Virus record (IMG/VR): IMGVR_UViG_3300037882_004575
Location: 1 to 46,085 of that record
DNA from: a virus
Reading direction: 5' to 3' (one strand)
DNA: 46,085 bases
The notes under the pieces were generated by a model. The model saw only the letters and a list, made by a program, of their open reading frames with translations. It had not been told where the DNA came from and did not search any database. The position numbers were made by a program, and so were the translations under genes. Shown one piece after another: positions 25,431 through 44,163 of this stretch. Every line of letters begins with the position of its first letter. Position 1 is the stretch's first letter.

Positions 25431-25459
25431 AATATGACACAATTTATCAGTCAAGTCAA
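25431..25459 (-). promoter_or_regulatory. Sigma-70-like promoter of YopX-like gene 1 (leaderless geometry)
   Basis: On the minus strand TTGACT (25459-25454), a 17-base spacer and CATATT (25436-25431) precede the ATG at 25422 by 8 bases. Transcription would begin at about the start codon. No Shine-Dalgarno is present. A second TTGACT overlaps the first (25454-25449) but gives no good -10. Confidence 0.5.
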
Positions 25460-25461
25460 GG

Positions 25462-26682
25462 CTAAACCTGCTGGTCAAACATATAAAAGTAATCTTGTTC
25501 GCGCCAAAACTCCTCGTGGTCTGGCACTTGGGAGATATTTTTACTAAAATCTTCCGTTGGCAAATCCATTAAATAGTGAAATTTTGATAAGTAAACTTTA
25601 CCTCGCGCCAGAAGGTATTTATTTGATTTAAACCATGTGGATGGCTTAATCTCAAGGTTAAACTGAGGATCATTCAGATAGCGGCGCGTGTCTGAGATGA
25701 AGTTATCCCTAGTTTTGTGGTTTGCCTTAATGATTTGGCAATAATCAAAGAATTCCAACCGCTTACGACTCAATTCATCCCCATCTAACTCTAATGTAAA
25801 GCACTGTAATTTTAGGCCAATTGATTTAAGAATTTTAATATATTCCGTGGTGATTAAAGAGTCTTTTATAAATTCAATAGTCAAAATATCCACATTCCCT
25901 TTGAGTTGGGCCAAACCATTCGGATTAATGGGGCGATTGGTGAGGATATTTAACTTACGAATTTGTAGCGTTTGAAATAAGATTTCCTCAGACCCGCCTA
26001 GATCAAATCGCGCGAGGGGGATTGAACCTTTGGCGAAGTCGGCACCTAATGGCATGTCGGGCACATATTCTAGCATAGGAGAGTTGAACCGTTGCCCAAT
26101 GAATAGGGATTTGCGGTTTAAATGGATTGATGCGCCGAGGATTTTGAAGACGCTATTAACGACCTCCTCTGGAGAAATTAATGCAATTGTGGATTCTTGT
26201 TCGTTGTTAGAAAATGTCGGATTACGATTCCAGCGATGAGATTCAATGGGGATACTAGCGGGGTGATACTGATAGGCAAAGTGGTTGGCGGAACTTGTTG
26301 GCCCGAAAGGTGTTACGACCGGAATATTTAAATAACCAGCTCGATGCTGACTCCACGAATCATTGCCTAAAAGCATTATTGCCCGTTTGATTAAGTAATT
26401 CGTTTGATGGAGAGAAGTTTGCCCCATGAGGTGAACGCATCCCGGAATGGGTTGATCTTCTTTGCCGCCAATTTGATAAATAGTGATACCATTTTGCTCA
26501 AAAATAGGGCCTAGAATTGAGATTACTTCCTGATAGTAGGGATAATTTTTACTGGCCATTCCGCTACTTGCGTGAAGTAAAATATAAGGGCCTTCTTTGG
26601 GCAGAGGAAAATATTTCTCGGCAAGGAACTGATTACCAATTTTTAAACCAGTCGCTAAACTATAAGATGGGAGTAATTTCAT
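25462..26682 (-). CDS. GT9 (heptosyltransferase-like) C-terminal half plus extra domain; 3' part of a frameshifted gene
   Basis: A 406-residue reading frame that begins inside a GT9 fold. Residues 32-50 (GPYILLHASSGMASKNYP) and 75-135 ('YQIGGKEDQPIPG'; 'LLGNDSWSQHRAGYLNIPVV'; 'TPFGPTSS') are the nucleotide-sugar half of GT9/ADP-heptose transferases. The N-terminal half is encoded at the end of the upstream gene in another frame. In this frame the sequence is open for about 30 codons upstream of the ATG and reads like GT9 (DFYPSSPKLPIELQSYFARM), so the ATG is probably internal. About 220 further residues (AQLKGNVDILTIEF...) form a domain I cannot name. The stop is TAG. Confidence 0.65.
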   Translation of the reverse strand: MKLLPSYSLATGLKIGNQFLAEKYFPLPKEGPYILLHASSGMASKNYPYYQEVISILGPIFEQNGITIYQIGGKEDQPIPGCVHLMGQTSLHQTNYLIKRAIMLLGNDSWSQHRAGYLNIPVVTPFGPTSSANHFAYQYHPASIPIESHRWNRNPTFSNNEQESTIALISPEEVVNSVFKILGASIHLNRKSLFIGQRFNSPMLEYVPDMPLGADFAKGSIPLARFDLGGSEEILFQTLQIRKLNILTNRPINPNGLAQLKGNVDILTIEFIKDSLITTEYIKILKSIGLKLQCFTLELDGDELSRKRLEFFDYCQIIKANHKTRDNFISDTRRYLNDPQFNLEIKPSTWFKSNKYLLARGKVYLSKFHYLMDLPTEDFSKNISQVPDHEEFWREQDYFYMFDQQV

Positions 26683-28580
26683 GCGGGCAAAATAGGATTG
26701 GAGTTCGATAGGTAGTTTAGGTGAACTTGGGTAGAAATCGCGGGAAAAAAGAAATAATGGAAGAGAGGATTATTCTTATCACCGCCACTTGAAATCATGG
26801 CCATTTCCTGAGTGAAGATCGGGTTAAAGGGAATGATTTTATGGACATGAGGGTTCCCTTCAAATACCTCCATGACTTTGGGTTCGCAGCAAATGTAGAG
26901 ATCGGTGCTCGGATACTGTTCGTGAAATGATTCAAATAGTTGTGTGAGGACCAGTGCATCGCCGATGGATTCCTTGAGAGTAATTAAGCCTCGTTTTTGT
27001 GGGCGATCTTTGTCGATGATATCCCATATATTAGTTTGAGTATTTTTTTGAACTTCATCTATGGCAACTTTTATGAAAAATTGATAAACCTGTTCGCGCG
27101 GGACGTTATTATTTAGTTGGTTAAACCAATTGTCAAATCCACCCTTGTCGGCGTCACGATTCAATATTTCTTTATACAAAAGGTTAATAAACTCGGGGAT
27201 GGATAAATCTTTATAGTTTGGGGGGAGTTGATAATTTGGGTTGGCTTTCGGGGCATCTAGGTTAATGGTGGACCAGTCAACCAACGGAAGTGAATCAATA
27301 AACTCCTCAATCTTTTTGCAATTTAGTTCCAAGTCATAATTCTCTTTTGCCCACTGACGCGACAACCGACCCATTTCCGTGCGCTTTGAGTCGTCCATGT
27401 TAAGGACTTTTTTGAGCTGTTTGGCGATGGAGGAAGGGTAAGGAGCAGACTTCTCAAACTGAGTGCCAATTTCAAGGTATTTGGCCCAATCCAAACAGAG
27501 GGCACCTTTATTAAGCTCTATCACATCTTCGCCATAAGAATAATCCGGAACGATAACGATTCTTTCCGCTGCTGCTGCCTCAATTACCGTTAGCTCGGCC
27601 CCGCCGCTTGTACTCGGATGCAAAAAAACATCCATCACGTTATAAACTTCGTTAAGCTGATCTTCAGTTAAACCTTTCGTGATATTAACTGTATTAACAG
27701 CTTTTTCTTTGCCGGTGAATGGGCATTTTTGTTCTTGGCCAACAAAGGGATGGAGGAAATATTCATTGCATTCAGAGGAAACATACGCGGTCCAAACTTC
27801 CTTCATATCCACGCCATAAGTTTTCGCCAAACGGGGAATATCCCAGCCTTCGCTAAAATTAGTAACTAAAAGAAGGATAGATTTTACTAATGGATTTTCT
27901 TTGCGAAAAACGGCGTAACCTTCCACTAAATTCGTAAACTTACGCAATTGATTGCGGCTGGAATCCCCAATCACGAAAACATCATCGCTGATTTTGAATT
28001 TATTCCGCAATTCTTTCGTCTTATTCACGCCCAAATTATAAAAATGAGTCAAATCGACGGGCGGATATTGGGTTTTAACATGTGTTTTCCCAAGTTTATG
28101 AAACTCTTTTCGCGCGAAATCGGCCCATGTCCAATAATAAGGAGTGGCATCGGCATCATCTACTCCAATTAAAGGTTTGCTATCCTGAGTAACCCAAAAA
28201 ACACTCGGGATTTTACCCCAGAAATTTTTAGTTTTATTGAAGTCAATTCCCCACTTATCTTCGACAAAAAAGTTTACATCTGATTGAAAATCTTTGACAA
28301 CATTTTCGACATTCATTTCTCCATAAGAAGCCAATCGGGCGCGATTTGGATCTTTATTTAGCTCGTTTAAAATTTGCTGGTTTGCGGGTAGGGCACCACG
28401 GGCTTTCCACGGTAAGGTTTGGAGTTCAGGGTTATGGTCGATTACTTGGGAGGCATATTCTAAAATTTCATATTTGCCAGTTTTTTGAAGATAAGATAGG
28501 ACGTTTTTTGTATTTTTTCCGAACCCAGTGAGCATGCGACTGTAGTTCGAGTTGAAGAGAATGCGTTTCTTGCGAGACAT
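26679..28580 (-). CDS. GT4-DUF4214-GT9 fusion glycosyltransferase, 5' part (frameshifted)
   Basis: A 633-residue protein. Residues 1-430 are a GT-B glycosyltransferase of GT4 type, with the C-terminal 'STSGGAELTVIEAAAAE' (E...E motif, about 325-340). Residues about 462-508 resemble DUF4214 (FINLLYKEILNRDADKGGFDNWF). From about 525 a GT9 N-terminal half starts ('LITLKESIGDALVLTQLFES'; 'ICCEPKVMEVFEGNPHVHK'). The GT9 fold breaks at a T6 run (26745-26750 on this strand); the last 20 residues look out of frame. The remaining GT9 half is the next gene. An intact gene would encode about 1050 residues with two active sites. A promoter lies directly upstream (28588-28616). Confidence 0.75.
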   Translation of the reverse strand: MSRKKRILFNSNYSRMLTGFGKNTKNVLSYLQKTGKYEILEYASQVIDHNPELQTLPWKARGALPANQQILNELNKDPNRARLASYGEMNVENVVKDFQSDVNFFVEDKWGIDFNKTKNFWGKIPSVFWVTQDSKPLIGVDDADATPYYWTWADFARKEFHKLGKTHVKTQYPPVDLTHFYNLGVNKTKELRNKFKISDDVFVIGDSSRNQLRKFTNLVEGYAVFRKENPLVKSILLLVTNFSEGWDIPRLAKTYGVDMKEVWTAYVSSECNEYFLHPFVGQEQKCPFTGKEKAVNTVNITKGLTEDQLNEVYNVMDVFLHPSTSGGAELTVIEAAAAERIVIVPDYSYGEDVIELNKGALCLDWAKYLEIGTQFEKSAPYPSSIAKQLKKVLNMDDSKRTEMGRLSRQWAKENYDLELNCKKIEEFIDSLPLVDWSTINLDAPKANPNYQLPPNYKDLSIPEFINLLYKEILNRDADKGGFDNWFNQLNNNVPREQVYQFFIKVAIDEVQKNTQTNIWDIIDKDRPQKRGLITLKESIGDALVLTQLFESFHEQYPSTDLYICCEPKVMEVFEGNPHVHKIIPFNPIFTQEMAMISSGGDKNNPLFHYFFFPAISTQVHLNYLSNSNPILPA

Positions 28581-28587
28581 ATTAGCT

Positions 28588-28616
28588 ATTATATTTAGTA
28601 ATAGGTAAAAAGTCTA
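28588..28616 (-). promoter_or_regulatory. Sigma-70-like promoter of the GT4-GT9 gene (leaderless geometry)
   Basis: On the minus strand TAGACT (28616-28611), a 17-base spacer and a perfect TATAAT (28593-28588), which ends 7 bases before the ATG at 28580. The predicted transcript starts at or next to the ATG. The -35 segment with its flank, TTAGACTTTTT, recurs at the promoter near 34886. Confidence 0.65.
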
Positions 28617-28619
28617 AGT

Positions 28620-29747
28620 TTAATCTTTGAATTTCCAGATATAACCATAAGCAGATTTAAGTCTTTCGTGGCATGCGGAAGAAATATTGTCAGCGGATAT
28701 ACCTAGTTCGTTTGCGGCAGCTTGAATGCTAGGCCACTCTTTGATTAATTCCTTTGTAATCTTATCTATTTGAAGTGTTTTTCTGCATCTTTTGGGAAGC
28801 TTAACCGTAAATCGAACTTTTTCCTCATCTGACAAATTTATATCGAGTTTATTAAAACCATACGGGGTATTATTCAGTTTATTATTTTTTATAATTTCAT
28901 TAGAATCTTCTAGGAGAATCTTTGTTTTTATGTTTTTACGAGATTCATTTAATTCAAGTATTTTAACAATTTTTATGAATTTGGAATATTTTCTATGTAG
29001 AAAAAACTTCGGTGGATCAGTATATATCCAATTCATAAAAGCTAGCGCTCCAGCTATAGACATGCCGATTTGGGCGCTTTTAGTATTTTTCTTCTCGCTA
29101 TAATAACAGTTTATACCAAGCTTCTCCTTGATAAATAGTTCTAAATCTTTTATTAGGCCGTAGGAACCGGTAAAACCAACCTGATATTTAAACTGATTTT
29201 TATTAAACATAAAATTTATTGAACCGTCGCCATCTAATAGACCGAGTAAAAAGGACCGATACATTTCTTCTGGCAGGAAAAATGGGAATCTAGTTGTCTC
29301 TATTTTATTTTGATGAGCGCCTTGATCTATTAGATTTTTACAAAACTTTACAGAATTTACATTTATTCTTACCATTTTGGAAATTTTATACTTCATTTGA
29401 CGCTCTCTATAAGTCTTATTTGATTCGCATCCGGAATCTAGCAGGAACCGATCTAAGGCGTATTCGTCGGTTTGCCATAGGCTAAAAGAAAAATTTCCAC
29501 GAACAGATACGCTTCCATCCGCGTAAATAAATCCAAGCCAGTAATCTTTCTCGGGAGTGTTAATTGCTTTAAAATAATCTTCATTAACTTTGTGGATTCT
29601 TGAATCTCTAAATTTAATCTTATTTCGCTTGAGAACGCAATGTATTGATGAGCCGGTTTTACCAAGTAGATCACCTATCTTTTGGCAAGACAGTCCACTC
29701 AAATACATGTCTATAACTTTTGAATCGTTTTCTGTGTTGGGTTTCAT
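28620..29747 (-). CDS. LAGLIDADG homing endonuclease (free-standing)
   Basis: A 375-residue protein with two LAGLIDADG motifs, WLGFIYADG (70-78) and LLGLLDGDG (167-175), each with the acidic residue that binds the catalytic metal. One chain with two motifs normally acts as a monomer and cuts a long, weakly symmetric site. Residues 8-45 form a helix-turn-helix (VIDMYLSGLSCQKIGDLLGK) and residues about 325-375 a NUMOD1-like DNA-binding module (SIQAAANELGISADNIS). It is AT-richer than its neighbours and sits between a terminator and the promoter of the glycosyltransferase gene, as expected for an invading gene. No intron or intein is recognised around it. Confidence 0.92.
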   Translation of the reverse strand: MKPNTENDSKVIDMYLSGLSCQKIGDLLGKTGSSIHCVLKRNKIKFRDSRIHKVNEDYFKAINTPEKDYWLGFIYADGSVSVRGNFSFSLWQTDEYALDRFLLDSGCESNKTYRERQMKYKISKMVRINVNSVKFCKNLIDQGAHQNKIETTRFPFFLPEEMYRSFLLGLLDGDGSINFMFNKNQFKYQVGFTGSYGLIKDLELFIKEKLGINCYYSEKKNTKSAQIGMSIAGALAFMNWIYTDPPKFFLHRKYSKFIKIVKILELNESRKNIKTKILLEDSNEIIKNNKLNNTPYGFNKLDINLSDEEKVRFTVKLPKRCRKTLQIDKITKELIKEWPSIQAAANELGISADNISSACHERLKSAYGYIWKFKD

Positions 29748-29751
29748 AAAT

Positions 29752-29780
29752 AAAAAAACCTTCCCCGGTTAAGGGAAGGT
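29752..29780 (-). terminator. Rho-independent terminator after SSB
   Basis: On the minus strand ACCTTCCC (29780-29773) pairs with GGGAAGGT (29765-29758) over a 7-base loop, followed by a T run (29758-29752). It closes SSB, 30 bases after its stop, and lies 5 bases before the homing endonuclease start, which therefore needs read-through or its own promoter. Confidence 0.9.
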
Positions 29781-29809
29781 CATTAAGACGAATGTGTTAT
29801 GATTAGTTT

Positions 29810-30499
29810 TTAGAACGGTACTTCATCAGAGGGAGTATCAGATGCGGGTTCTGGCTCTTGTGGAGTAGAAGTTTGAGCGGGCTTGGGCGCGGGTTTCTTG
29901 GTATTCTTTTGCGCGGCCTCCACTTTCTTCGCCAACTCATCAATCTCCTTTTTAACAAGTTCATCAAGCTCTGTATAATCGGTTGCGATAACTTCTTTTT
30001 TCTTATTAAGAGTCACTTCTGGCTTGGGCAGCTTATCAAGTGGATACTTACCCTTGATCATCTTGTCCTTTTGCCACACAGATACATTCGTATAAACCTT
30101 ATTAGTGGTTTTGTTCTCAGATTTATATAGAGAAATTGAAACTCCCTCGTAAGATTCAAGATTGGCTAGGGCAAGATAAAGATTCCGGGCAACTGCCGAT
30201 AGGCGACCGTCAAACAAGTACACTTCCTTAGCTTCGTCATCCTTGAAATACAGCTTAATTACATCGTATTCCTTATTCTTCTCCTTCCAAATTTTAGTGG
30301 TGCGTTCAACCTTATACAGATCTCCACCAAATTGCTCTTCAAGTTTGGGGCGAACCGTCCATTCCCCACCATCAGTCTGAGGTGGTTCACTGATTTCGAA
30401 TTGATACGGGGTCATCACAACACCCGCTTCATCTTTTGATTTAATACGGATAACAAGAACCTTGCCGTCCGGAGTTTGATTGCGTTTTCCAATTGCCAT
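29810..30499 (-). CDS. ssb: Single-stranded DNA-binding protein
   Basis: A 229-residue protein with a beta-rich N-terminal part (residues 10-150: VLVIRIKSKDEAGVV, 'DVIKLYFKDDEAKEVYLFDG', 'KVYTNVSVWQKDK') that fits an OB fold, a Lys/Ala/Pro-rich flexible linker (about 185-215) and the acidic tip 'DTPSDEVPF'. The linker and the acidic tip ending in -PF are the mark of bacterial and phage SSB, where the tip recruits replication and repair proteins. It has its own promoter (30564-30593), a leader of about 57 bases that is A-rich and lacks a Shine-Dalgarno, and a terminator. It is expected to serve phage DNA replication and recombination. Confidence 0.78.
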   Translation of the reverse strand: MAIGKRNQTPDGKVLVIRIKSKDEAGVVMTPYQFEISEPPQTDGGEWTVRPKLEEQFGGDLYKVERTTKIWKEKNKEYDVIKLYFKDDEAKEVYLFDGRLSAVARNLYLALANLESYEGVSISLYKSENKTTNKVYTNVSVWQKDKMIKGKYPLDKLPKPEVTLNKKKEVIATDYTELDELVKKEIDELAKKVEAAQKNTKKPAPKPAQTSTPQEPEPASDTPSDEVPF

Positions 30500-30563
30500 T
30501 TTATTTTACTTTTGTTTGTTGTTTACTTTGTTTTACTATTAGATGGTCGCCCACCGTAAAGAT

Positions 30564-30593
30564 ATATTACACTTATTTCGGGAATAAAGTCAA
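30564..30593 (-). promoter_or_regulatory. ssb: Promoter of SSB, TTGACT/TAATAT overlapping AGTGTAA
   Basis: On the minus strand TTGACT (30593-30588), an 18-base spacer and TAATAT (30569-30564). The AGTGTAA core seen in the virion region lies across the same place (30573-30567, context AAATAAGTGTAA). This site therefore has both kinds of signal and may be read early and late. Unlike the other promoters here, it gives a leader of about 57 bases. Confidence 0.6.
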
Positions 30594-30608
30594 CTTATTT
30601 TTTGCACC

Positions 30609-31013
30609 TTATTCCAAAACAATCCCCTTTTTCGCCAAACTTTCTTTCGCCTTGCGCTTCTTAACCTCGAATGATTCCAGTCCAGTGAGTTTCTTCCTCT
30701 CTTCAAAATGCTTTTCCTTAATAGGGTCCAAGCCACCCGCCTGCTGCGCACGTTTTTCGCTCATCTCGGCTGAATAATCACTTAGCTCGCCCCAGTTACC
30801 CTTCATTTTCCCAGTCTTCTCGGTAAATTGCTTTTGCGAAAAACAATCGACTTTTTGAGAATCTGAACTAGTGGTTGGTAAGGTGGGCATTCGTCTCCAC
30901 TGCTGATTTTCGTATTCGATTATCGTCCCAATTCGGGGAGCGTCCTTGAAAGTGAAGAAAATATCTGTGTAAATTTCTTCGTTATCGACTGATTGAAAGA
31001 GGTATGTAGGAAT
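30609..31013 (-). CDS. FmdB-like phage protein with apparent AUU start
   Basis: Translating upstream of the first ATG (30890) gives 41 more codons that open with I/M-PTYLFQSVDNEEIYTD, the start of phage FmdB-like proteins (MPTYxF...). The later parts also fit that family: 'WRRMPTLP', 'CFSQKQFTEKTGKMKGNWGE', 'SEKRAQQAGGLDPIKEKHFE'. The full protein is 134 residues; starting at the ATG would delete the conserved domain. The codon at the family's Met position is ATT (31013-31011), preceded by GGAG 9 bases upstream. An in-frame stop lies further upstream and no ATG, GTG or TTG is available between. The zinc-ribbon cysteines of cellular FmdB are missing. Function unknown, perhaps regulatory. Confidence 0.7.
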   Translation of the reverse strand: MPTYLFQSVDNEEIYTDIFFTFKDAPRIGTIIEYENQQWRRMPTLPTTSSDSQKVDCFSQKQFTEKTGKMKGNWGELSDYSAEMSEKRAQQAGGLDPIKEKHFEERKKLTGLESFEVKKRKAKESLAKKGIVLE

Positions 31014-31029
31014 TTTAAATTTCTCCGTT

Positions 31030-32121
31030 TTAAGTTAGGTTAGTCAAAATTGTATCCACCGTCTTTTCCCAAGTAAATTGTTCGCGCAATTTAAGACCGG
31101 CGCTATTCAATTTATTTGCATTTTTCCGCTCCATCACCTTATCAAATGCCACCATCAAATCGGGCTCACTCCACGTCCAGAAGTTTCCGATATTGAAATC
31201 ACCAGTGTTAGAGAAAAAGATTCCATCCTTGGCGACTGTCTTTCCTGTGGATTCTACTAAAACCGCATTCTCGCTATTCGCCCACCCCTTCATCGCGCTC
31301 GCATTGTGAATAATAGCATGTTTACCCAAACCCATCGTAGAGAAGCTTGGGATCGACCAGCCTTCATTTGAGGACATATCTATAACAATATCCGCGCAAT
31401 TATATGCATCATTTAACTGAGCGAGGTTTTCAACGTAAGGAATCGCCACAACATTATCCCACTTCTTGCCTAGAATTTCGTTAAGAATTTGCGCGTTATG
31501 TTCGGGCTTTAAGTGGACGTTATAAATACTTAAGTGAAGCATATGGGCCATATTGTTTCCATATTTTTTCAACCACGCGCGAGTCGTCTCTAGGGTTTTT
31601 TTACGGGATTCTGCCTTACCACTTATAATCCAACAAGTTACGTTATCGTCGTAATACTTTTTATTAGTCTTGTTGAAGTGCAGCGTATCGTAACCAAGCG
31701 GAGCACAAACGACTTTTGTTTTAACCCCATTTTCAAGAAATGTTTGCTTTGTCTCCTCAGAGGATACAAAAACGCACGATTGATTGTTGAGGATATTCGT
31801 TTCAACGGGAGTAAGGCCGTCCACTAACTCGTAAAACGTGAATAAATTCTGGTTCGCGCCAACTGATTCCCACGATTGCCCAATATGCCACAGACGTAAC
31901 GTAGGATTCGCGCGGGAGAATTTAAGTGGCGCGTTCTTTGCGGATTGGTGAATCCAGCTAATTAGCTCGGGCTCGGCTTTATTGAAAGAGCTTAGGTCTA
32001 AATTTCCACCAATGGGAAATAGATCAACCTCAAGGCCGCGTTTCCAAAATTCGCGGAGAATATGGAAGGAGCAGAACCCGAAAGATAAGCTGTTGACCGC
32101 CAAATGTAAATTATATCTCAT
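31030..32121 (-). CDS. GT4-family glycosyltransferase
   Basis: A 363-residue GT-B enzyme. The N-terminal half has Rossmann-type strands with 'LFTFYELVDGLTPVETNIL' (an acceptor-side feature) and 'VFVSSEETKQTFLENGV'. The donor half shows 'CWIISGKAESRKKTLETTRA', 'YVENLAQLNDAYNCADIVID' and 'SSNEGWSIPSFSTMGLGKHA'. The last is the E...(E) region, with S in place of the second Glu, so catalysis may differ from standard GT4. Likely role: transfer of a sugar to a phage or host acceptor. The stop precedes the AUU of the FmdB-like gene by 16 bases. Starts 14 bases after the gene at 32136. Confidence 0.75.
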   Translation of the reverse strand: MRYNLHLAVNSLSFGFCSFHILREFWKRGLEVDLFPIGGNLDLSSFNKAEPELISWIHQSAKNAPLKFSRANPTLRLWHIGQSWESVGANQNLFTFYELVDGLTPVETNILNNQSCVFVSSEETKQTFLENGVKTKVVCAPLGYDTLHFNKTNKKYYDDNVTCWIISGKAESRKKTLETTRAWLKKYGNNMAHMLHLSIYNVHLKPEHNAQILNEILGKKWDNVVAIPYVENLAQLNDAYNCADIVIDMSSNEGWSIPSFSTMGLGKHAIIHNASAMKGWANSENAVLVESTGKTVAKDGIFFSNTGDFNIGNFWTWSEPDLMVAFDKVMERKNANKLNSAGLKLREQFTWEKTVDTILTNLT

Positions 32122-32135
32122 TGATTATTAAATAG

Positions 32136-33113: not shown

Positions 33114-33710
33114 TTATGCGGTTGTGTAACTAAATTTTGCCTTACAATCTTCCTTGAATTTTTCAATGGCCAAATCATGTACCTTACGACTCTTCTCATG
33201 GGAGAAGGTAAGCCCATGATCCTTGAGTGAGTGCCAACTAACTTTCCCCGAATCATCCCCGAAGTAGCGCGCCTCAATCACTTTTTCAAATTCATGCCCT
33301 CCTACCGTCCGCGCAATCTTAAGGGCTTCATTTTTCACGGAATCTGAATCGTTGAACGAAAAACTCTCTGAGCCCTCTATTGTCTCATTAGTAAGCTCCT
33401 CCATTTCAACATTTTCGCGCAGAACGTGCAGACAATCCCAGCGGGTCTTTTGATGCAGCCAACTTGAAAGTTTCATCCCTTTATTCGGGTTGTAGTCTAA
33501 TGTATATGAGTAAATATTTGTATCTTTCTGATCCTTAAGGTCGTCTTTGATTAAATTTGGTAGTTTAAACCCATTTACCACATTCATGTATATCCCGGTA
33601 TGCCGGTTGATGATTTCACACATGGCCTCATTGGAGGCAGATTCTTGAACTTTACGGGCAAGCTCGGAATCTGTAAGTTTTTGAATCTCGGCAATTTCGG
33701 CGGGCAACAT
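33114..33710 (-). CDS. Sigma-70-family RNA polymerase sigma factor
   Basis: A 198-residue protein with the two core sigma regions. Region 2 (about 25-100) reads 'SNEAMCEIINRHTGIYMNVV' and then 'LDYNPNKGMKLSSWLHQKTR', the phage counterpart of 'FDP.RG.kFstwa...iR'. Region 4 (about 138-188) reads 'FEKVIEARYFGDDSGKVSWH' and 'HGLTFSHEKSRKVHDLAIEK', the helix-turn-helix that contacts a -35. The linker is short and acidic. The protein would redirect host RNA polymerase, probably to late genes. The AGTGTA elements are candidate targets (inference). It lies between YopX-like genes with 1-3 base gaps. Confidence 0.82.
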   Translation of the reverse strand: MLPAEIAEIQKLTDSELARKVQESASNEAMCEIINRHTGIYMNVVNGFKLPNLIKDDLKDQKDTNIYSYTLDYNPNKGMKLSSWLHQKTRWDCLHVLRENVEMEELTNETIEGSESFSFNDSDSVKNEALKIARTVGGHEFEKVIEARYFGDDSGKVSWHSLKDHGLTFSHEKSRKVHDLAIEKFKEDCKAKFSYTTA

Positions 33711-34862: not shown

Positions 34863-34891
34863 ATTCTAGAGAAATTGCGGCAAAAAGTCTA
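34863..34891 (-). promoter_or_regulatory. Sigma-70-like promoter of the YopX-sigma unit (short leader)
   Basis: On the minus strand TAGACT (34891-34886), a 17-base spacer and TAGAAT (34868-34863), ending 12 bases before the ATG at 34850, so the leader would be about 5 bases. The -35 and its flank (TTAGACTTTTTGCC) nearly repeat the promoter of the GT4-GT9 gene (TTAGACTTTTTACC). Confidence 0.6.
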
Positions 34892-35930: not shown

Positions 35931-35959
35931 ATAATTGATTGTTTCTACTCTTTAGTCAA
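35931..35959 (-). promoter_or_regulatory. Sigma-70-like promoter of the gene at 35545-35922 (leaderless geometry)
   Basis: On the minus strand TTGACT (35959-35954), a 17-base spacer and AATTAT (35936-35931), ending 8 bases before the GTG at 35922. The -10 matches consensus at four of six positions. It begins two bases after the TAG of the polymerase-like gene. Confidence 0.5.
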
Positions 35960-37380: not shown

Positions 37381-37446
37381 AAGTTACGCGGAATTTGAAT
37401 GATTTGTCAAGATTTTTGTTGACTTGATTTATGAAATATGTTATTT
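37381..37446. promoter_or_regulatory. Divergent promoter region with facing -35 boxes
   Basis: Leftward: TTGACA (37410-37405), 18 bases, TAACTT (37386-37381), ending 7 bases before the ATG at 37373. Rightward: TTGACT (37419-37424) with a weak -10 near TTATTTG (37441-37447), ending about 8 bases before the ATG at 37455. The two -35 boxes form an inverted repeat, GTCAA-N8-TTGAC (37406-37423), so a dimeric repressor or a single polymerase could choose between directions. The rightward -10 is poor and may need an activator. Confidence 0.5.
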
Positions 37447-37454
37447 GGGGCAAA

Positions 37455-38165
37455 ATGAAAAATAAAGACAAGATGATGTTCGGGATGAAGCTGGGCGTCA
37501 AATGGTTTGATTCTAAGGTTAAGTGCCGAAAGTTTATAAACGACCTGCTTAAAGGGCGAGATGGCATTATTGAGGACTATTGGACTCGGGATATTTTATG
37601 GGATTTGCTGCAATTTCATCCAAGTCTCGATCTTAAAACCGGAGTAGGATTAAATTATTTTTATTTTGACGAGAATGGCATTTTGTCGATTATGAGGGTT
37701 GATGGGAGTTCAGTTGATTTTGGGGTAACTGCATGTTTAGATGGGATTTATGAGACAAATTTAAATTTTTTTAGGAGTTTGGTCAGAGTTCAGGTAGAAG
37801 CCTATAAACGGTCGTTCGTGGGTAACGCAAGTTATTTTGATTCTGAGTATTCTGGGACGAAGTTTCATGTTTCGCAAATAAATTGCGATCATCTAATTCC
37901 GTTTAGATATATTTTGGATAAGTTTTGTTCCTTAAGTAAGGTTAATTTATATTCACAAAAATTTTTCGAGAATCCAAGTGAGAATCAAATTCTTTTGGAT
38001 AAATGGTTCAAATTTCATAAGATGTTCCCATTACGGGTGGTTTCGGCCCAAGAGAACGCTTCGGATATCCGAAAAGATGACAACGAGCGCGGAGAAGAGT
38101 ATTTCCAGCAAAGAATTGATGAAATTTTATTGAGAAATGATTGGATTCGCGACAACCCAGTTTAA
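37455..38165 (+). CDS. DUF3223 protein with HNH-like C-terminus
   Basis: A 236-residue protein. Residues 8-100 match DUF3223 (DCL-type): 'WFDSKVKCRKFINDLLKG', 'LLQFHPSLDLKTGVGLNYF', then 'IMRVDGSSVDFGVTACLDG'. The C-terminal part follows the bacterial DUF3223 layout with a nuclease-like 'FHVSQINCDHLIPFRYILDK', which keeps the D-H of an HNH fold but lacks the usual Cys pair. A nucleic-acid-related function is likely but not shown. The ATG at 37455 was preferred because the promoter would begin transcripts at about that point; an in-frame ATG at 37431 adds 8 residues and would lie upstream of the predicted RNA start. Confidence 0.7.
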   Translation: MKNKDKMMFGMKLGVKWFDSKVKCRKFINDLLKGRDGIIEDYWTRDILWDLLQFHPSLDLKTGVGLNYFYFDENGILSIMRVDGSSVDFGVTACLDGIYETNLNFFRSLVRVQVEAYKRSFVGNASYFDSEYSGTKFHVSQINCDHLIPFRYILDKFCSLSKVNLYSQKFFENPSENQILLDKWFKFHKMFPLRVVSAQENASDIRKDDNERGEEYFQQRIDEILLRNDWIRDNPV

Positions 38166-38167
38166 AT

Positions 38168-38196
38168 TTGACTTCCTTCCCAAATTCCCCAATAAT
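38168..38196 (+). promoter_or_regulatory. Sigma-70-like promoter in front of a TTG start (leaderless geometry)
   Basis: TTGACT (38168-38173), a 17-base spacer and AATAAT (38191-38196, five of six consensus), ending 7 bases before the TTG at 38204. It fills the whole gap between two genes and is the clearest rightward example of this promoter-start arrangement. Confidence 0.65.
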
Positions 38197-38203
38197 CCCT
38201 TAA

Positions 38204-38389
38204 TTGAACATCGAACTTAAAACCTCTTCCGGCGACAAGATTAAATTCGTAGGTTTGTCTAAAAACAAGGGTGTGGTATGGGTGGAGTTGTTTGGACGAC
38301 GAAATCACCTACTTATCAGTGACCTAGACGAAGAATCTCGGTTAAGGGTGGTTGCTCTTGAGGTTGAGGCAAGACGAAATTTAACATGA
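38204..38389 (+). CDS. Small protein with TTG start
   Basis: A 61-residue protein (MNIELKTSSGDKIKFVGLSK...). It has four or five short beta strands and a basic C-terminal helix (EVEARRNLT), SH3- or Sm-like in style; no family recognised. The codon directly before the TTG is a stop, and there is no ATG in frame, so TTG is the only start that keeps the N-terminal strands. There is no Shine-Dalgarno. It is coupled to the next gene by ATGA. Confidence 0.5.
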   Translation: MNIELKTSSGDKIKFVGLSKNKGVVWVELFGRRNHLLISDLDEESRLRVVALEVEARRNLT

Positions 38390-38643
38390 ATGACATTGAA
38401 ATTTACATAGATAACGCGCGCGGGCAAGTACCCCTTAAGGACGCTCTGAATTTAATTCACGCAAAAATTAACGCAAATGAACGCCTTTCCCTCGAAACCG
38501 CCAATGATTTGCGTTTAGCTTGCGAGACTCTGCTCCACCGATATGGCGAGTTGAAAAGCGCGGCGAAGGAAGCGGTCAGGTGTGATAAGTTTGGGATTCA
38601 TTCTGAAGAGGCTATGGATAATCTCAGGAATTTAATCGCATGA
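38386..38643 (+). CDS. Small helical protein
   Basis: An 85-residue, soluble, mostly helical protein (DALNLIHAKINANERLSLETAN, broken after 20: the helix continues 'DLRLACETLLHRYGELKS'). Two cysteines without a metal-binding pattern. No family recognised. ATGA overlaps link it to genes on both sides, so it belongs to the early rightward operon that begins at 38204. Confidence 0.5.
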   Translation: MNDIEIYIDNARGQVPLKDALNLIHAKINANERLSLETANDLRLACETLLHRYGELKSAAKEAVRCDKFGIHSEEAMDNLRNLIA

Positions 38644-38873
38644 AAATCTCTAATAAGTGGCACAATTTCCTGTTTGGTTGGCGGCGCGGAACAGCGGCCT
38701 ATTTACTAATTTGGCTCGGTTCATTTGGCGGGTTGGGCCAACTTTTAAACGGTGCGGATTCTTATTTGGGAGTAATTTCGGCGTATTGTTTCGTTTATTT
38801 TATTTTTCAAGGTTATAAAAAGTGCGGATTTATTGATCTGTGGGATAAAGAGGAATATACTAACCTAAAATGA
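38640..38873 (+). CDS. Small membrane protein
   Basis: A 77-residue protein with two probable membrane helices, at about 17-37 (GTAAYLLIWLGSFGGLGQLL) and 42-58 (YLGVISAYCFVYFIFQG), and charged ends (WRR before, KKCGFIDLWDKEEY after). No family recognised. Coupled by ATGA at both ends in the early operon; the position before a glycosyltransferase might mean a shared membrane task, but that is a guess. Confidence 0.5.
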   Translation: MKISNKWHNFLFGWRRGTAAYLLIWLGSFGGLGQLLNGADSYLGVISAYCFVYFIFQGYKKCGFIDLWDKEEYTNLK

Positions 38874-39790
38874 AGATTTTCTGTGATGGCAGTCGCTTTT
38901 ATGGATCACAAATCGAATCCATCGAAAAGGGTTTTATTGAACTCGGCCATGAAATAACCTCTCATATTGGGGAAGCTAATCTTATTTATTCGAATAATCC
39001 GTCACCAACGCGCACGCAAATTGTTAAGGATATTAAGGAAGGAAAAACAAAAAGGGGCGCGAAATTTGTTACAACAATTTTGGATTTTCCGGAACATTTA
39101 GAGCATACCGAATCTTTCCAAAAGGAAATTCCTCAAATAAAAGCCGACTTAAGCGCTGCGGATGCCGTTTGCTCAATTTCAGAATATACGCAAAAAATGG
39201 TCAAGCTTAAGTATGGCTTTGATTCAACGGTGATTTATAATCCTATTAAAGACGTTTGCTTATCCCCTTACATCAAACGCAATGTATTTGCAACAATAGT
39301 CGGGAGGAAATTTGATCCGAACAAGTTCGTGAAAACGGCAATTCAAGCCTGTCAAATTTTAGGTGTCCCCGAAGAGCAGGTTTTAATGGTGGGAAGCGAA
39401 TCCGTTGGTTGGGGCAATTTTCAAGGCGTCTTGAGTGATGAGAATTTAAATAAAGTTTACAACTCGGCATTTTTCTCATTTAGTTTAGGCGAAGTGGAAG
39501 GGATCAACTTGCCTGCCATTGAAGCCGCTGCTTGTGGTTGCATACCCGTTATTAACTCTAAACTAACAACTAGACAGGAGTTATTTCCTAGTAGCTTGTT
39601 CCCCGAGTATGATTCCGTTAATGCAGACCCTGTTAGTATCGCCAAATTTATCGCCAGATTTAGTCAAGATAATGGCGCGAGAGAAGATTTGACGAACAGG
39701 CTTACCAACCATTATAATAATAACCTGAAGGATAAATTTAGTGGGCGGTCTGTCGCGCAAAAAATATTAAAAATTTATGAAAATCTCTGA
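38870..39790 (+). CDS. GT4-like glycosyltransferase
   Basis: A 306-residue GT-B enzyme, shorter than usual. It contains 'AADAVCSISEYTQKMVKLKY' and 'VIYNPIKDV' (linker to the donor domain), 'VGRKFDPNKFVKTAIQACQI', and 'FSLGEVEGINLPAIEAAACG', the E-x7-E nucleotide-sugar motif of GT4 (about residues 205-222). The N-terminal acceptor domain is reduced. It probably transfers a sugar from a nucleotide donor to a phage or cell-surface acceptor. Start by ATGA overlap; the next gene starts 14 bases before its end. Confidence 0.78.
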   Translation: MKIFCDGSRFYGSQIESIEKGFIELGHEITSHIGEANLIYSNNPSPTRTQIVKDIKEGKTKRGAKFVTTILDFPEHLEHTESFQKEIPQIKADLSAADAVCSISEYTQKMVKLKYGFDSTVIYNPIKDVCLSPYIKRNVFATIVGRKFDPNKFVKTAIQACQILGVPEEQVLMVGSESVGWGNFQGVLSDENLNKVYNSAFFSFSLGEVEGINLPAIEAAACGCIPVINSKLTTRQELFPSSLFPEYDSVNADPVSIAKFIARFSQDNGAREDLTNRLTNHYNNNLKDKFSGRSVAQKILKIYENL

Positions 39791-39986
39791 GTTAAAGGTA
39801 ATTTTAGACGAATACTTAAGTAAGGGTCTTGATTATGAGATCGTAAGCCATGATTTTTATGATGTTGGTTATTATAGTGGTATTGAGGTTGACGAGATTG
39901 ATTTTTCCTCACCTCAATTTGAAGATTGTTATCGCCAGCTAAAAAGAGATAAATATTTATTGATTGGCGGAGATTCTGATTTATGA
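39777..39986 (+). CDS. Small acidic protein
   Basis: A 69-residue acidic protein (ELKVILDEYLSKGLDYEIVS, 'GIEVDEIDFSSPQFED', ending LLIGGDSDL). No family recognised. The ATG lies inside the 3' end of the glycosyltransferase gene, in the context AAATTTATG, shared with several genes of this block. It is coupled to the next gene by ATGA. Confidence 0.45.
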   Translation: MKISELKVILDEYLSKGLDYEIVSHDFYDVGYYSGIEVDEIDFSSPQFEDCYRQLKRDKYLLIGGDSDL

Positions 39987-40216
39987 GTAAACACCAACAC
40001 CTCTTCAACTGGCTTCAAGCTAAGTTCGCGCGAAAGCCGAAGATTATCATTCTTGGCGGGGCACACTCTGAAACACCCAACTATTACGCGGAATCTGGCT
40101 TTGAACCTTGTGAAATCGCGGGGCAACAGATTAAGCTTAATTTAACGGAGGATACTTCTGGTAGGCGCTGGGTTACGGTTGGGAATAATTTTAGTTTCGC
40201 GGGATACTCAACATGA
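39983..40216 (+). CDS. Small hypothetical protein
   Basis: A 77-residue protein that begins with a basic helix (QHLFNWLQAKFARKPKI) and continues with beta strands (KIIILGGAHSE; 'EIAGQQIKLNLTEDT'; 'RRWVTVGNNFSFAGY'). The 'IIILGGAHSET' segment looks like a nucleotide-fold strand and loop but the protein is too short for a full fold. No family recognised. Coupled to both neighbours by ATGA. Confidence 0.45.
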   Translation: MSKHQHLFNWLQAKFARKPKIIILGGAHSETPNYYAESGFEPCEIAGQQIKLNLTEDTSGRRWVTVGNNFSFAGYST

Positions 40217-40311
40217 CCTATTTAATTTGTGTTAATTATACAAATTCATATGATTTCAGACCGGCTTATATCCCGTTTAACAGTCAACGAGTCGTATATT
40301 CCGAGGTTTAA
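40213..40311 (+). CDS. Possible micro-protein of 32 residues
   Basis: An ATGA overlap with the previous stop opens a frame of 32 codons (MTYLICVNYTNSYDFRPAY..., ending VVYSEV), closed by TAA 3 bases before the next ATG. It fills the gap exactly, as real genes in this block do. It is too short for recognition, and an inverted repeat at 40224-40246 lies within it, so the stretch may be regulatory instead. Confidence 0.35.
   Translation: MTYLICVNYTNSYDFRPAYIPFNSQRVVYSEV
40224..40246 (+). repeat. Inverted repeat AATTTGT-N9-ACAAATT
   Basis: A perfect 7-base inverted repeat (40224-40230 and 40240-40246) around GTTAATTAT. It lies between the small early genes and the glycosyltransferase run. AT-rich with no T tract, it is more like a protein-binding site than a terminator. 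Confidence 0.5.
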
Positions 40312-40314
40312 TTT

Positions 40315-41118
40315 ATGAATGAATATAAAGAGCCAGAGTTGACTATAGTAGTTTTGGATTTTTTAAAGGAGACCGAAACTCGTTTATGCCTAGACTCAAT
40401 CAAGCGGCATGTTAAGTTTCCCATAAAGGTGATTTACATGCACAATGGCAACGGCGCGGAATACCCATATCAATTTTTTAAGGAAGGTTTGTGTGACACT
40501 CTTATTCAAACGCAAAAGAACGAGGGTTTGGGAATTGGGACAAGAGATACTTTCAATGCGGTTTTTAGTCCGTGGACCCTAAGCTTACAGAACGATCAAG
40601 TCATTGGGCGCGATTTCACTCAGGAAGAATTTAATAAAATAAAGCAATATTTTGACGCCGGTTACAATGGGAATATTATTAAATCGGTTGGTCTAGCCGG
40701 TCACGTTTGTGGCCAAGGAATTTATAGCGAGAGATGTCATATAATTAAGACCGAATTTTATAAATGGATGGAAAAGGGGCTTCCTTATCATGGTTGTGGG
40801 CCGTACCACGATGGTGAATGGAGGGAGTCTTATATTCAGCGGTTATATAAGGCTAATAAGTTAATCCATTTTACGGATTGGCAACCTTTAGTTATTGATA
40901 ATGGTCGGAGCGCAAAACGACAAAATCCAGATGGGTCATTATGGGAACATAGGCCCGACACAAAGGGGCTTAGATTGATTAGTGGCCCCGTCAAGGAGAA
41001 GAATATTTACCCCTTTTTTACAGACGAAGAGTGGGCGAAAGTTATTTCTACGCAAACTTGGCCCGAATGGCAGATTCCAGAACGCGAAAAGGCGCATAGT
41101 TTTCATGTGTGGAATTAA
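40315..41118 (+). CDS. GT2-like (GT-A) glycosyltransferase
   Basis: A 267-residue protein with a GT-A N-terminal fold: 'LTIVVLDFLKETETRLCLDS' (strand, loop, helix), 'FPIKVIYMHNGNG', 'LIQTQKNEGLGIGTRDTFNA' (the nucleotide-sugar loop) and 'TLSLQNDQVIG' at the DxD place, where N-D-Q replaces D-x-D. The C-terminal half has His, Cys and Trp residues ('GHVCGQGIYSERCHII', 'YHGCGPYHDGEW') not usual in GT2. Metal use may therefore differ, or it may not be an active transferase. Start ATG in the context TTTAATTTATG. Part of the rightward glycan cluster. Confidence 0.6.
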   Translation: MNEYKEPELTIVVLDFLKETETRLCLDSIKRHVKFPIKVIYMHNGNGAEYPYQFFKEGLCDTLIQTQKNEGLGIGTRDTFNAVFSPWTLSLQNDQVIGRDFTQEEFNKIKQYFDAGYNGNIIKSVGLAGHVCGQGIYSERCHIIKTEFYKWMEKGLPYHGCGPYHDGEWRESYIQRLYKANKLIHFTDWQPLVIDNGRSAKRQNPDGSLWEHRPDTKGLRLISGPVKEKNIYPFFTDEEWAKVISTQTWPEWQIPEREKAHSFHVWN

Positions 41119-41130
41119 ATTATAAAATTT

Positions 41131-41928
41131 ATGTTTAGTATTTATGTTAGCTTATTTAATCTAGAAAAACACAACTTTCCTTGGCGCGAAAGTGCCGAAA
41201 ATTTTGTTCAATTTGCTGGAGAGTCGGGAGAGGTTGTTCTTGCGGTTAACAAATCAGAAGATAACTCCCTTATTTTAGTTCAAGAGTTCGCCGCGCAACA
41301 CAAAAACGTGGTAGTCATTGAGACTAATTTCTCATACGGAGACATTGAGTTTGACGGAAAAATCAAGAACGCCGCACTTCAAGCTACAACCAAGCCGGTA
41401 AAAATTCAAATGGACGCGGATGAAATCATTCCGCTGAGTCAAAAACCGAAATGGGAAATGTATGCGCGCGAATTACTTAAAAACTCGCAAATTGACTGCT
41501 GGATGGTCCCGACACTTGATGTTTATGGATCTTTAGATAAAATTCGTTCGGATATCCAAATTGGCCAAAAATTCAGAATCCATAAGGAAGGGTTTTTTCG
41601 CGGGGTAATTAATTCTGCGCGAAGAGGGGATAAGATTGACACGTCAAAATCTGATTCTTGTGAAATCATCAATGCCAATGGGGACTTGGCCCGATGCGCG
41701 AGTTTTGTTAATCCAATAGTTCTAAACCCTATATTTGCCGATCAACTCTCTGATTATATTTTTACCGTGCATCTCGGCTACTTGAGTTTTGAGCATCGGC
41801 TAAATATTAACAACAAGCTATGGAAATCGCATTGGCAACTCAGGTCGGGCCACGAAGAAAACGTAGCCACCTCCATTAATCAACTTGACAAATATCCCTT
41901 AGCATTTCACAATCTTCCCCTAATTTAA
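41131..41928 (+). CDS. GT2-like (GT-A) glycosyltransferase
   Basis: A 265-residue GT-A protein. 'VVLAVNKSEDNSLILVQEF' and 'KNAALQATTKPVKIQMDADE' lead to the D95-x-D97 metal-binding motif. 'FEHRLNINNKLWKSHW' near the C-terminus is also seen in phage glycosyltransferases with this domain. The initiation context is AAAATTTATG without a Shine-Dalgarno. It is the second of four GT-A genes in the cluster and probably extends or decorates the same glycan. Confidence 0.72.
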   Translation: MFSIYVSLFNLEKHNFPWRESAENFVQFAGESGEVVLAVNKSEDNSLILVQEFAAQHKNVVVIETNFSYGDIEFDGKIKNAALQATTKPVKIQMDADEIIPLSQKPKWEMYARELLKNSQIDCWMVPTLDVYGSLDKIRSDIQIGQKFRIHKEGFFRGVINSARRGDKIDTSKSDSCEIINANGDLARCASFVNPIVLNPIFADQLSDYIFTVHLGYLSFEHRLNINNKLWKSHWQLRSGHEENVATSINQLDKYPLAFHNLPLI

Positions 41929-41929
41929 T

Positions 41930-42136
41930 ATGCCCCGCTCCAAAGAGAGAATTAAACCCTTACTAGAGAATATTGAGAAAATTTGGGCCACTCAGCCAGA
42001 TCTAAGGCTAAATCAGCTCTTATCGGTGCTTGCAAAATTGCATGGCGGTTGGCGCGAAAATGATTTATTTTATTTTGAAGACAAAGACTTATTGACAGCC
42101 ACGGAGAAATATATGAAGATGCATCAAATTAAGTAA
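41930..42136 (+). CDS. Small RxxRI/PDLRLxQL protein
   Basis: A 68-residue protein. 'RSKERIKPLLENIEKIW', 'PDLRLNQLLSVLAKL' and 'NDLFYFEDKDLL' form a pattern common to a family of small bacterial and phage proteins of unknown function (R..RI.p.l..l...W...PDLRL.QL...D.FY.ED..L). I cannot name the family with certainty. It starts 1 base after the previous stop, so it is translated from the glycan operon. Confidence 0.6.
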   Translation: MPRSKERIKPLLENIEKIWATQPDLRLNQLLSVLAKLHGGWRENDLFYFEDKDLLTATEKYMKMHQIK

Positions 42137-42139
42137 CCT

Positions 42140-42505
42140 ATGAAAAATAACATTTTACCAGATAGCTTTAAAGAGTCTTTTGAGAAAGAGGAGTCGTTTA
42201 AAAACTTGATGCGTGAACAGGCCGTCACCGAATTTGTTTTATTTACATTCGGAAGTTTAGATGATTTCATTATAAAAGGCGAAAAGGCTCATATTAAAAA
42301 TTCAGATTACCATTTAATTAAAGGTCGCGGGGATTATTTACTAATATTCCATAATACTATGAGCGATAGATTTAATGTAAATACTCCAATTCAGACAAAA
42401 GGGGACATATACAGGGAAATTGTTAGATGGGAGAATATAGAGGCTGGAACCTCAATTAAAAAGCCATCTTTTTTCTCTAGACTTTTTAATTTTTCGCGCG
42501 TTTAA
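42140..42505 (+). CDS. Hypothetical protein
   Basis: A 121-residue soluble protein, with charged helices at the N-terminus (DSFKESFEKEESFKNLMRE), beta strands in the middle ('YHLIKGRGDYLLIFHNT') and a basic, aromatic C-terminus (KKPSFFSRLFNFSRV) that could touch a membrane. No family recognised. It starts 3 bases after the previous stop, within the glycan operon. Confidence 0.5.
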   Translation: MKNNILPDSFKESFEKEESFKNLMREQAVTEFVLFTFGSLDDFIIKGEKAHIKNSDYHLIKGRGDYLLIFHNTMSDRFNVNTPIQTKGDIYREIVRWENIEAGTSIKKPSFFSRLFNFSRV

Positions 42506-42509
42506 GCTG

Positions 42510-43358
42510 ATGATTAAGCCATATCTGGTATTCATGTCAGGACCCGGCGAGGAAATCAACATCCGGGAATTAGTTGAACCCATAAAATCTTATATCCGAG
42601 GAGTTTGCGCCCTAATCCATGATGCGGATTCATTTGACGCGGGCTCGCAATACTTACTGAAGGTTAATGATGAATTAGGTGGCGGAAATGTGATTTTTGG
42701 CCCTTACACGGGTCGCCATGACGCTAGTCGTAATAGGATTCTGTATGAAACCGGAATCAAAGAGAACGAATGGTACTTACAAACAGATTTACTTGAACAT
42801 CCCCGTAAGGAATTTCTTGAAAAGGTACCTGAAATTATCAAGCAGAACCCCTCCTTGAATTGCTTATTTTATTACGGGAAACCATATTTGGTGAAATTCA
42901 CAGAATGGTTGAAATACGACGGAACGCCGCATGAAAGTTTAAAGGGTATTCGGGGGCAGTCAGTGGAGTACTCACAAATTGAACCAGACGAATCAAAAGT
43001 GCGGCAAAATATGCGCCCCCTTAAACGGAAAGACCGCCTCCATTTCGTGGGACACTACGCAAAATACTATTTTTTACCCGGCAGTAATCAATGTTTACTT
43101 GGACTAGATCATCGCCCAAATGATTCTTTTGAACGGAGAATGGCCTTAAGGGACCATCTTAAGAAATATATGCTAGATAAGGGGCTTGATTTTTCGTTAA
43201 ATAGCTTCATTGATATGGTCAAACGTGAGGGAATTTATCACGAATTGAAAAAATATATTAATCACGAGAAGATTTTACAAGATGTGGTGAGATTAAATGT
43301 GATGAAGGAGACAGATATTCAAGATGAGCACGCATGGACAACGATGAAAACTTATTAA
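42510..43358 (+). CDS. GT-A-like glycosyltransferase-family protein
   Basis: A 282-residue protein of the glycan cluster. 'GVCALIHDADSFDAGSQYLL', 'NVIFGPYTGRHDASRNRILY' and 'NEWYLQTDLLEHPRKEFLEK' follow the order of a GT-A fold in which the D-L-L-E segment takes the DxD place; a clear DxD is absent. The 'RHD.SRN' segment is seen in phage relatives of GT2 enzymes. The C-terminal third is helical and charged. A sugar transferase function is likely but the acceptor is unknown. The start has no good Shine-Dalgarno. Confidence 0.55.
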   Translation: MIKPYLVFMSGPGEEINIRELVEPIKSYIRGVCALIHDADSFDAGSQYLLKVNDELGGGNVIFGPYTGRHDASRNRILYETGIKENEWYLQTDLLEHPRKEFLEKVPEIIKQNPSLNCLFYYGKPYLVKFTEWLKYDGTPHESLKGIRGQSVEYSQIEPDESKVRQNMRPLKRKDRLHFVGHYAKYYFLPGSNQCLLGLDHRPNDSFERRMALRDHLKKYMLDKGLDFSLNSFIDMVKREGIYHELKKYINHEKILQDVVRLNVMKETDIQDEHAWTTMKTY

Positions 43359-43362
43359 ATTT

Positions 43363-44136
43363 ATGAAAATTCCTGTTAATATCTGCCTATTCACAAGCAC
43401 AAAAGGTCATTGGAATGTCCGCACGAGATATTTTGATACTGTAAACAACTTAAATAACCAAATCCCCCTATCATCTTTCGTGGGTTTATTCGCGCACATT
43501 AAAGTGACCCCCGGTGAGGAACAGATTGCAAACGATATGCAGTTAAATTTGGAGAAATTTGGTTTTACCGTAATCAAAACCATTGGCGATTGGGCGCACG
43601 GTAAAAATCATCAGGAGGAATACTTGAAGGATATTACAAAAATATTTTTTAACCCAGAAGTTAATAAAACCGAATATTCATTTTTTCTTGAGGACGATTT
43701 CGATATTGTTTGTAGAAAAGATAAATTTGTAGATTATATTGCCAAAGCCACGCTAATTTTGAATGAAAATCCCGACATTGTTTCGGTGAGAATCGCACGC
43801 GCGGCTAATGAAAGGGAGAGAATTTCTGGTTTGTGGGCGAAACATGGAATTCAATCTTTCGTATCTTTGGATTTAAATGGTTATTTCTTGGCCACGGACT
43901 TTAGTAATAATCCTCATTTTATTCGAACTCGTGACATGCGTAATGCAATGATTCTATTAAGAAAAGTAAACGGTTTCCCAATTCATTCGGAACACGGAAC
44001 AGCGGCGGCAATTAAAGTTTTTAATAATTCACAAATGCCAATCGCCATTTTTTGCCCGGAGGATATCGTTTGCAGGCATCGGGGGACGCCCATTGGCGAG
44101 GAAGAACCGAATGATAAGGATATTTTTCTTGACTAA
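43363..44136 (+). CDS. GT-A glycosyltransferase
   Basis: A 257-residue GT-A enzyme with 'SFFLEDDFDIVCRKDKFVDY', whose E110-D-D-F-D114 carries the DxD metal motif. 'PEDIVCRHRGTPIGEEEPN' is a C-terminal segment with conserved-looking His and Arg. The N-terminus 'VNICLFTSTKGHWNVRTRYF' is the nucleotide-sugar strand. Initiation context AAATTTATG. The last codons hold the -35 of the next gene's promoter (44129-44134), so the glycan cluster is split into two transcription units here. Confidence 0.7.
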   Translation: MKIPVNICLFTSTKGHWNVRTRYFDTVNNLNNQIPLSSFVGLFAHIKVTPGEEQIANDMQLNLEKFGFTVIKTIGDWAHGKNHQEEYLKDITKIFFNPEVNKTEYSFFLEDDFDIVCRKDKFVDYIAKATLILNENPDIVSVRIARAANERERISGLWAKHGIQSFVSLDLNGYFLATDFSNNPHFIRTRDMRNAMILLRKVNGFPIHSEHGTAAAIKVFNNSQMPIAIFCPEDIVCRHRGTPIGEEEPNDKDIFLD

Positions 44137-44157
44137 GATAACGTAATCCAATAAAAT
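44129..44157 (+). promoter_or_regulatory. Sigma-70-like promoter of the DegT unit (leaderless geometry)
   Basis: TTGACT (44129-44134, overlapping the last codons of the previous gene), a 17-base spacer and TAAAAT (44152-44157, five of six consensus), ending 6 bases before the ATG at 44164. No Shine-Dalgarno is present. Confidence 0.65.
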
Positions 44158-44163
44158 CTAAAA

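Follow-up and report, generated by a model that had tools for sequence, protein, structure and literature searches.

Sigma-70 promoters adjoining start codons suggest leaderless early mRNAs in an uncultured phage clade

Introduction

The cI and cro mRNAs of phage PY54 begin at the AUG, as determined by RACE (PMC4488713). In these genes, as in cI of lambda (PRM), the promoter is placed directly ahead of the start codon, and this is the arrangement that we describe here for a phage clade. The lambda and PY54 cases concern single repressor genes of temperate phages, whereas in the clade the arrangement accounts for most detectable sigma-70 promoters and, unlike in lambda and PY54, stands ahead of replication, recombination and glycosyltransferase genes.

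Among cellular genomes, the TA-led genes of Deinococcus-Thermus and Actinobacteria have the first T of their -10 element about 12 bp before the start codon and lack a Shine-Dalgarno (SD) sequence (PMC3160421, PMC12340547). The clade resembles them in having a -10 that adjoins the open reading frame and in the absence of an SD. However, TA-led genes are cellular and often carry a bare -10 (TANNNT), whereas the clade consists of AT-rich phages with a TTGAC -35 at 17 bp spacing. The virion genes of the clade recall the T4-type late promoters (gp55, TATAAATA), in that a single AT-rich element is found before virion genes and a phage sigma-like protein is encoded. In the T4-type system, the phage sigma factor reads its single-element late promoter together with a sliding-clamp co-activator. 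The clade differs in its element, AGTGTAA(WWA), and in a protein with sigma regions 2 and 4, and the link between element and protein is one of co-occurrence only.

Single leaderless phage mRNAs are already known. In the literature that we searched, the coverage of which was incomplete, we found no phage group described in which leaderless initiation predominates among early genes, and its use in this role by a whole clade appears to be new.

Promoter sites in the window

The window, i.e., the whole stretch of 46,085 nucleotides that was analysed, is a fragment of a tailed phage and constitutes a 46-kb IMG/VR virus record. Lambda-like tail genes are on the plus strand, up to position 24214. 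The early region is on the minus strand (24211-37373), and a plus-strand region (37455-45713) encodes many glycosyltransferases. The label "early" is inferred from gene content, without time courses. No DNA match was found for positions 20001-44000 among 50,697 phage records, nor did the protein of the SSAP gene (Table 1) match anything in the phage records searched; thus, no cultured host is indicated.

Table 1. Promoters, motifs and genes of the window (G001-G005, related IMG/VR genomes; numbers between hexamers are spacer lengths in bp)
Feature	Coordinates	Strand	Remarks
AGTGTA motif	4306..4311	+	start of virion gene 15 nt downstream; near group, strict SD tetramer absent
AGTGTA motif	5287..5292	+	ahead of virion gene 5322; retained in G002
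AGTGTA motif	8530..8535	+	upstream of tape-measure-like gene 8556; followed by SD
AGTGTA motif	16185..16190	+	ahead of minor tail gene 16212, with AAAGG after the motif; retained in G001, G002, G004 and G005
Rad52/ERF/Sak-like single-strand annealing protein (SSAP)	24211..24987	-	from predicted fold; marker gene of the clade
Fused promoter TTGACT-17-CATATT	25431..25459	-	8 nt to ATG 25422; YopX-like gene, then SSAP
Fused promoter TAGACT-17-TATAAT	28588..28616	-	7 nt to ATG 28580; glycosyltransferase operon
AGTGTA motif	30568..30573	-	ahead of gene 29810-30499; retained in G001 and G004
Sigma-70-like factor, regions 2 and 4	33114..33710	-	family A5; candidate AGTGTAA reader
Promoter TAGACT-17-TAGAAT	34863..34891	-	12 nt to ATG 34850; probably short leader (~5 nt)
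Fused promoter TTGACT-17-AATTAT	35931..35959	-	8 nt to GTG 35922
Fused promoter TTGACA-18-TAACTT	37381..37410	-	7 nt to ATG 37373; back to back with the 37455 promoter
Fused promoter TTGACT-17-TATTTG	37419..37447	+	7 nt to ATG 37455; weak -10, shuffle p=0.086
Fused promoter TTGACT-17-AATAAT	38168..38196	+	7 nt to TTG 38204
Fused promoter TTGACT-17-TAAAAT	44129..44157	+	6 nt to ATG 44164; absent in G001 and G004

The initial annotation had proposed that a -35/-10 pair recurs at the heads of early units, with the -10 ending 6-12 bases before the start codon and no SD, and that the resulting mRNAs are leaderless. We observe the pair at all eight sites, with a spacer of 17-18 bp; the -10 ends 6-8 nt before the start at seven of them and 12 nt before it at 34850. 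At six starts, the distance back to the first T of TTGAC is 35, 36, 36, 37, 37 and 37 nt, and at 28580 TAGACT is found 36 nt ahead; the window contains about 106 TTGAC words on both strands. SD tetramers are missing from the fused starts (0/8) and are detected at 4 of 16 virion starts and 7 of 25 other early starts, in agreement with the proposal that genes inside operons or in the virion region often have one.

The window was scored with an E. coli sigma-70 matrix that was not fitted to these sites, and starts were chosen automatically. Eight sites score at least 7 bits at a -10-to-start distance (d) of 4-9 nt, compared with about 0.8 expected, and the best near-start score (d=4-12) of the 16 virion starts is 5.2 bits. 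The motif-to-start distance is not equally common in shuffled or virion upstream regions; an equal frequency there would have refuted the leaderless reading. Some of the sites are imperfect. The -10 hexamers CATATT, AATTAT, TAACTT and TATTTG are poor, the starts at 25422 and 37455 must be placed downstream of the longest open reading frame start, and at 34850 the matrix itself favours TTGCCG-17-TAAATT at d=4. TTGACA words before 41930 and 42140 were rejected as promoters (they are within coding sequence and a -10 would be 16-19 nt off), and additional matrix matches at 32723 and 38870 (8.3-8.4 bits) are not claimed, as both are inside upstream genes and that at 38870 is not found in orthologs.

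At 7-8 nt downstream of the -10, E. coli sigma-70 polymerase favours a purine as the starting base. Given this preference, a -10 ending 6 nt before the ATG would place initiation on the A of the ATG. Leaderless transcripts (0-2 nt) at the heads of units are the best reading of these sites, and a strong inference. Under the mechanism that we propose, early and replication genes would be driven by host-type sigma-70 promoters (TTGAC-N18-TATAAT, with the -10 about 6-8 nt before the start codon), and this distance suggests that host RNA polymerase initiates at the start codon or 1-2 nt ahead of it. The mRNAs would be translated via recognition of the 5'-terminal AUG, probably by the 70S route and not by SD pairing, and translation of the downstream genes of each unit may depend on coupling (ATGA overlaps) or on weak SDs. 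As the start choice of the polymerase varies by 1-3 nt, some leaders may be 1-3 nt long. The sigma-70 consensus and the rules for transcription start sites are borrowed from E. coli because the host is unknown, and by E. coli standards the TTG of 38204 is a poor leaderless start.

Related loci and control phages

The product of 24211-24987 resembles, in its predicted fold, annealing proteins of the Rad52/ERF/Sak type. A scan of IMG/VR with an alignment of this protein retrieved 171 relatives, 80 of which were kept. Across 79 SSAP loci (GC content 27-45%), approximately three quarters of the readable starts have TTGAC 33-38 nt before the ATG. The clade set was defined as 48 dereplicated IMG/VR loci that share the SSAP gene (688 genes). 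In this set TTGAC is detected 75 times at 33-38 nt, including 41 times at exactly 35, versus 0.6 per position, and the -10 consensus TATAAT, which was not selected for, emerges at a 17-bp spacer. Matrix sites are strongly enriched at 4-9 nt (81 versus 1.3 expected) and at d=5-9 (80 versus 1.4 expected). The spacing peaks at d=6 (43 matches versus 0.28 expected); distances of 1-3 and 13-59 nt are nearly empty. De novo positional 6-mers comprise TTGACA/TTGACT at -35, TATCAT at -12 and GTGTAA at -15. The fused genes belong to 21 gene families, and the peak persists without the largest of them.

No SD tetramer is present at the fused starts of the clade in either of two counts (0/83 and 0/89); the tetramers are found in about 20% of the other genes and in 7% of control stretches. 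ATG is the start codon of 87 of the 89 fused genes, in line with the marked AUG preference of leaderless genes; in the window, however, the starts at 35922 and 38204 are GTG and TTG. The first 40 nt are less structured in the fused class (-1.67 versus -2.68 kcal/mol, p=3e-4), and T is enriched at position -1 in the d=35 class (28/47 versus 39%, p=0.009). The p-values for structure and for the -1 base are optimistic, given that family members are not independent, and are regarded as supporting evidence only.

The same matrix comparison revealed no fused class in lambda, P22, T1 or part of T4. Of the excess of sigma-70 promoters located near genes, the fused class accounts for 0.89 in the clade, compared with 0.28 in a sample of other viral contigs and 0.00 in the enterobacterial phages. 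This sample is not fully random, as its contigs had been retrieved by means of a promoter whose gap is 15 nt; the starts matched in this way were left out of the count. Other IMG/VR contigs (L242-L361) have a TTGAC peak at 34-37 nt (24 versus 2 per flanking 4-nt bin). Since this peak is discrete and minor, environmental phages in general seem to use leaderless promoters as a minor mode. A leaderless start seems to be the chief mode for early units in an uncultured and widespread phage clade. In environmental viruses at large it seems to be a separate mode of lesser extent (about 28% of the sigma-70 promoters detectable close to genes in the sampled contigs). This has consequences for the calling of gene starts and promoters in genomes of this kind, and it offers a simple way of testing whether phage take-over is served by 70S/leaderless initiation.

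We also compared orthologous genes. The IMG/VR relatives G001-G005, found via the minor tail protein (16212-16946), have gene order in common with the window, and most shared genes encode proteins that are about 36-70% identical. Single-protein scans with the glycosyltransferase and 35961-37373 proteins as queries returned zero relatives. Orthologs of 28580 (about 37% protein identity) in G001 and G004 are preceded by TTGACA-17-TATTAT/AATAAT-7-ATG. In G001, G002 and G004 the SSAP ortholog is itself directly preceded by TTGACT-17-AATCAT/AACCAT-6-ATG, and in L029 it has TTGACA 34 nt before the ATG. The promoter of 38204 is kept in G001 and G004 (in G004 the start is an ATG two codons later), and that of 44164 is found in the window only. 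Leaderless initiation at the heads of early units is therefore supported by spacing, SD absence and orthologs, except at 34850. Relatives of this gene have TTGACA-17-AATACT-16-ATG, and a -10 that is 12 nt from the start here and 16 nt in the relatives indicates that 34850 is probably short-leadered and not leaderless.

Virion genes and a sigma-like protein

The AGTGTA motif is in excess in intergenic sequence (4 versus 0.3 expected in the window, 7 versus 0.4 in G002). Its extended form is AGTGTAA(WWA), with no clear -35. Where the motif is far from the start (25-40 nt), an SD is detected in 41% of cases by a strict definition and in 67% by a lax one; where it is near (14-18 nt), the strict frequency is 0%. 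This contrast is expected if transcription begins just downstream of AGTGTA. We consider AGTGTA(A) a candidate late promoter before virion genes, which would in most cases give a short SD-bearing leader and may be read by a phage sigma factor. In divergent gene pairs of three relatives (L053, L086 and L064), AGTGTA(A) forms the palindrome TTACACTATWATAGTGTAA.

A protein that may fill this role is encoded at 33114-33710. On its own the window protein has no Pfam or PHROGs match. In its family (A5), Pfam detects Sigma70_r2 in 12 of 18 members and Sigma70_r4 in 9 of 18, and the family profile matches SigA with E=3e-9. The best-ranked matches to the predicted fold are sigma factors. The AlphaFold model has a pTM of 0.50 and whole-chain superpositions are only loose, because the relative placement of the two domains is poor. 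The family is conserved, and related loci, either viral or MAG-binned, contain 20 homologs; a single-protein scan with the window protein retrieved one locus, with a match of 18 residues only. That this sigma factor reads AGTGTAA is a candidate assignment inferred from the co-occurrence of gene and motif, without binding or transcription data.

The fused promoters are paired with a candidate phage sigma factor and a candidate late promoter motif. Although no RNA 5' ends are available, we regard it as very likely that early genes are on fused sigma-70 promoters that give rise to leaderless mRNAs and that virion genes are on AGTGTAA. Far more speculative, and rather doubtful at present, is the notion that early and late messages are sorted by initiation route, with leaderless early mRNAs from host sigma-70 and mostly SD-led virion mRNAs from the phage sigma and AGTGTAA. 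If true, such sorting would imply two mRNA classes with different initiation pathways and ribosome states during infection.

Alternative explanations

The host lineage may be heavy in leaderless genes and the phages may simply imitate it, an explanation that rivals only a phage-specific strategy and not leaderlessness itself. We consider this a serious possibility, if somewhat short of an even chance. Several lineages, among them Deinococcus-Thermus and Actinobacteria, commonly have leaderless promoters (PMC3160421, PMC12340547), and a trait found across the clade fits a common host group. However, SDs do occur at other genes of these phages, and the MAGs with binned relatives display no clear enrichment of fused over displaced promoters on the chromosome, although the binning may be wrong and the hosts are unknown. 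A first host query of GTDB genomes returned nothing. A second retrieved contigs binned with Verrucomicrobiales, Flavobacteria, Cytophagaceae and a Lokiarchaeon; this set is inconsistent, and the contigs were taken as binned viral contigs and not as an indication of hosts.

Genome compaction could also have pushed promoters into the shortest intergenic space, leaving leaders of 1-5 nt with S1- or structure-based initiation, so that leaderlessness would be a by-product. The layout is compatible with this. The intergenic space at fused starts contains the promoter and little besides: at five window sites the -35 is only 1-3 bp away from the upstream gene, at 44164 there is an 8-bp overlap with the upstream gene, and two promoters back to back make up the 81-bp gap at 37374-37454. 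In addition, 34850 retains a leader of 5-9 nt without an SD. Yet compaction alone would not yield the sharp 6-nt peak with its empty flanks, and the far AGTGTA group of the same genomes keeps SD-bearing leaders. We therefore view compaction as unlikely to be the whole explanation.

Misassigned start codons, with true starts downstream that have an SD and ordinary leaders, are very improbable. The sites at 25422, 37455 and 38204 do depend on a particular choice of start, but orthologous proteins start at the same codon within one residue (query 1 to subject 1 at 28580, query 1 to subject 2 at 44164 and 34850), and the conserved core of several SSAP orthologs is preceded by no more than a few residues. 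Chance or base composition, i.e., AT-rich upstream sequence that mimics promoters, can practically be discarded: the genomes are AT-rich and some -10s are weak, but the matrix was independent and background rates were applied, the controls comprised virion starts, further distances and phages outside the clade, and the promoters are conserved at orthologs. Leaderless early mRNAs remain the reading that we prefer.

Genes next to the promoters

A YopX-like gene (24994-25422, minus strand) is located between the fused promoter and the SSAP gene. G004 encodes two YopX-like genes (25502 and 68950, both on the minus strand), likewise with fused promoters. The protein of 35961-37373 (minus strand) matches PHROG 4756 and, weakly, ICP1-like and huge phage proteins; its conserved part is the C-terminal half, and no function is assigned. 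Finally, a LAGLIDADG homing endonuclease gene (28620-29747, minus strand), the ATG of which comes right after a terminator-like hairpin, adjoins the fused promoter of 28580, just before it, and is absent from this position in the relatives.
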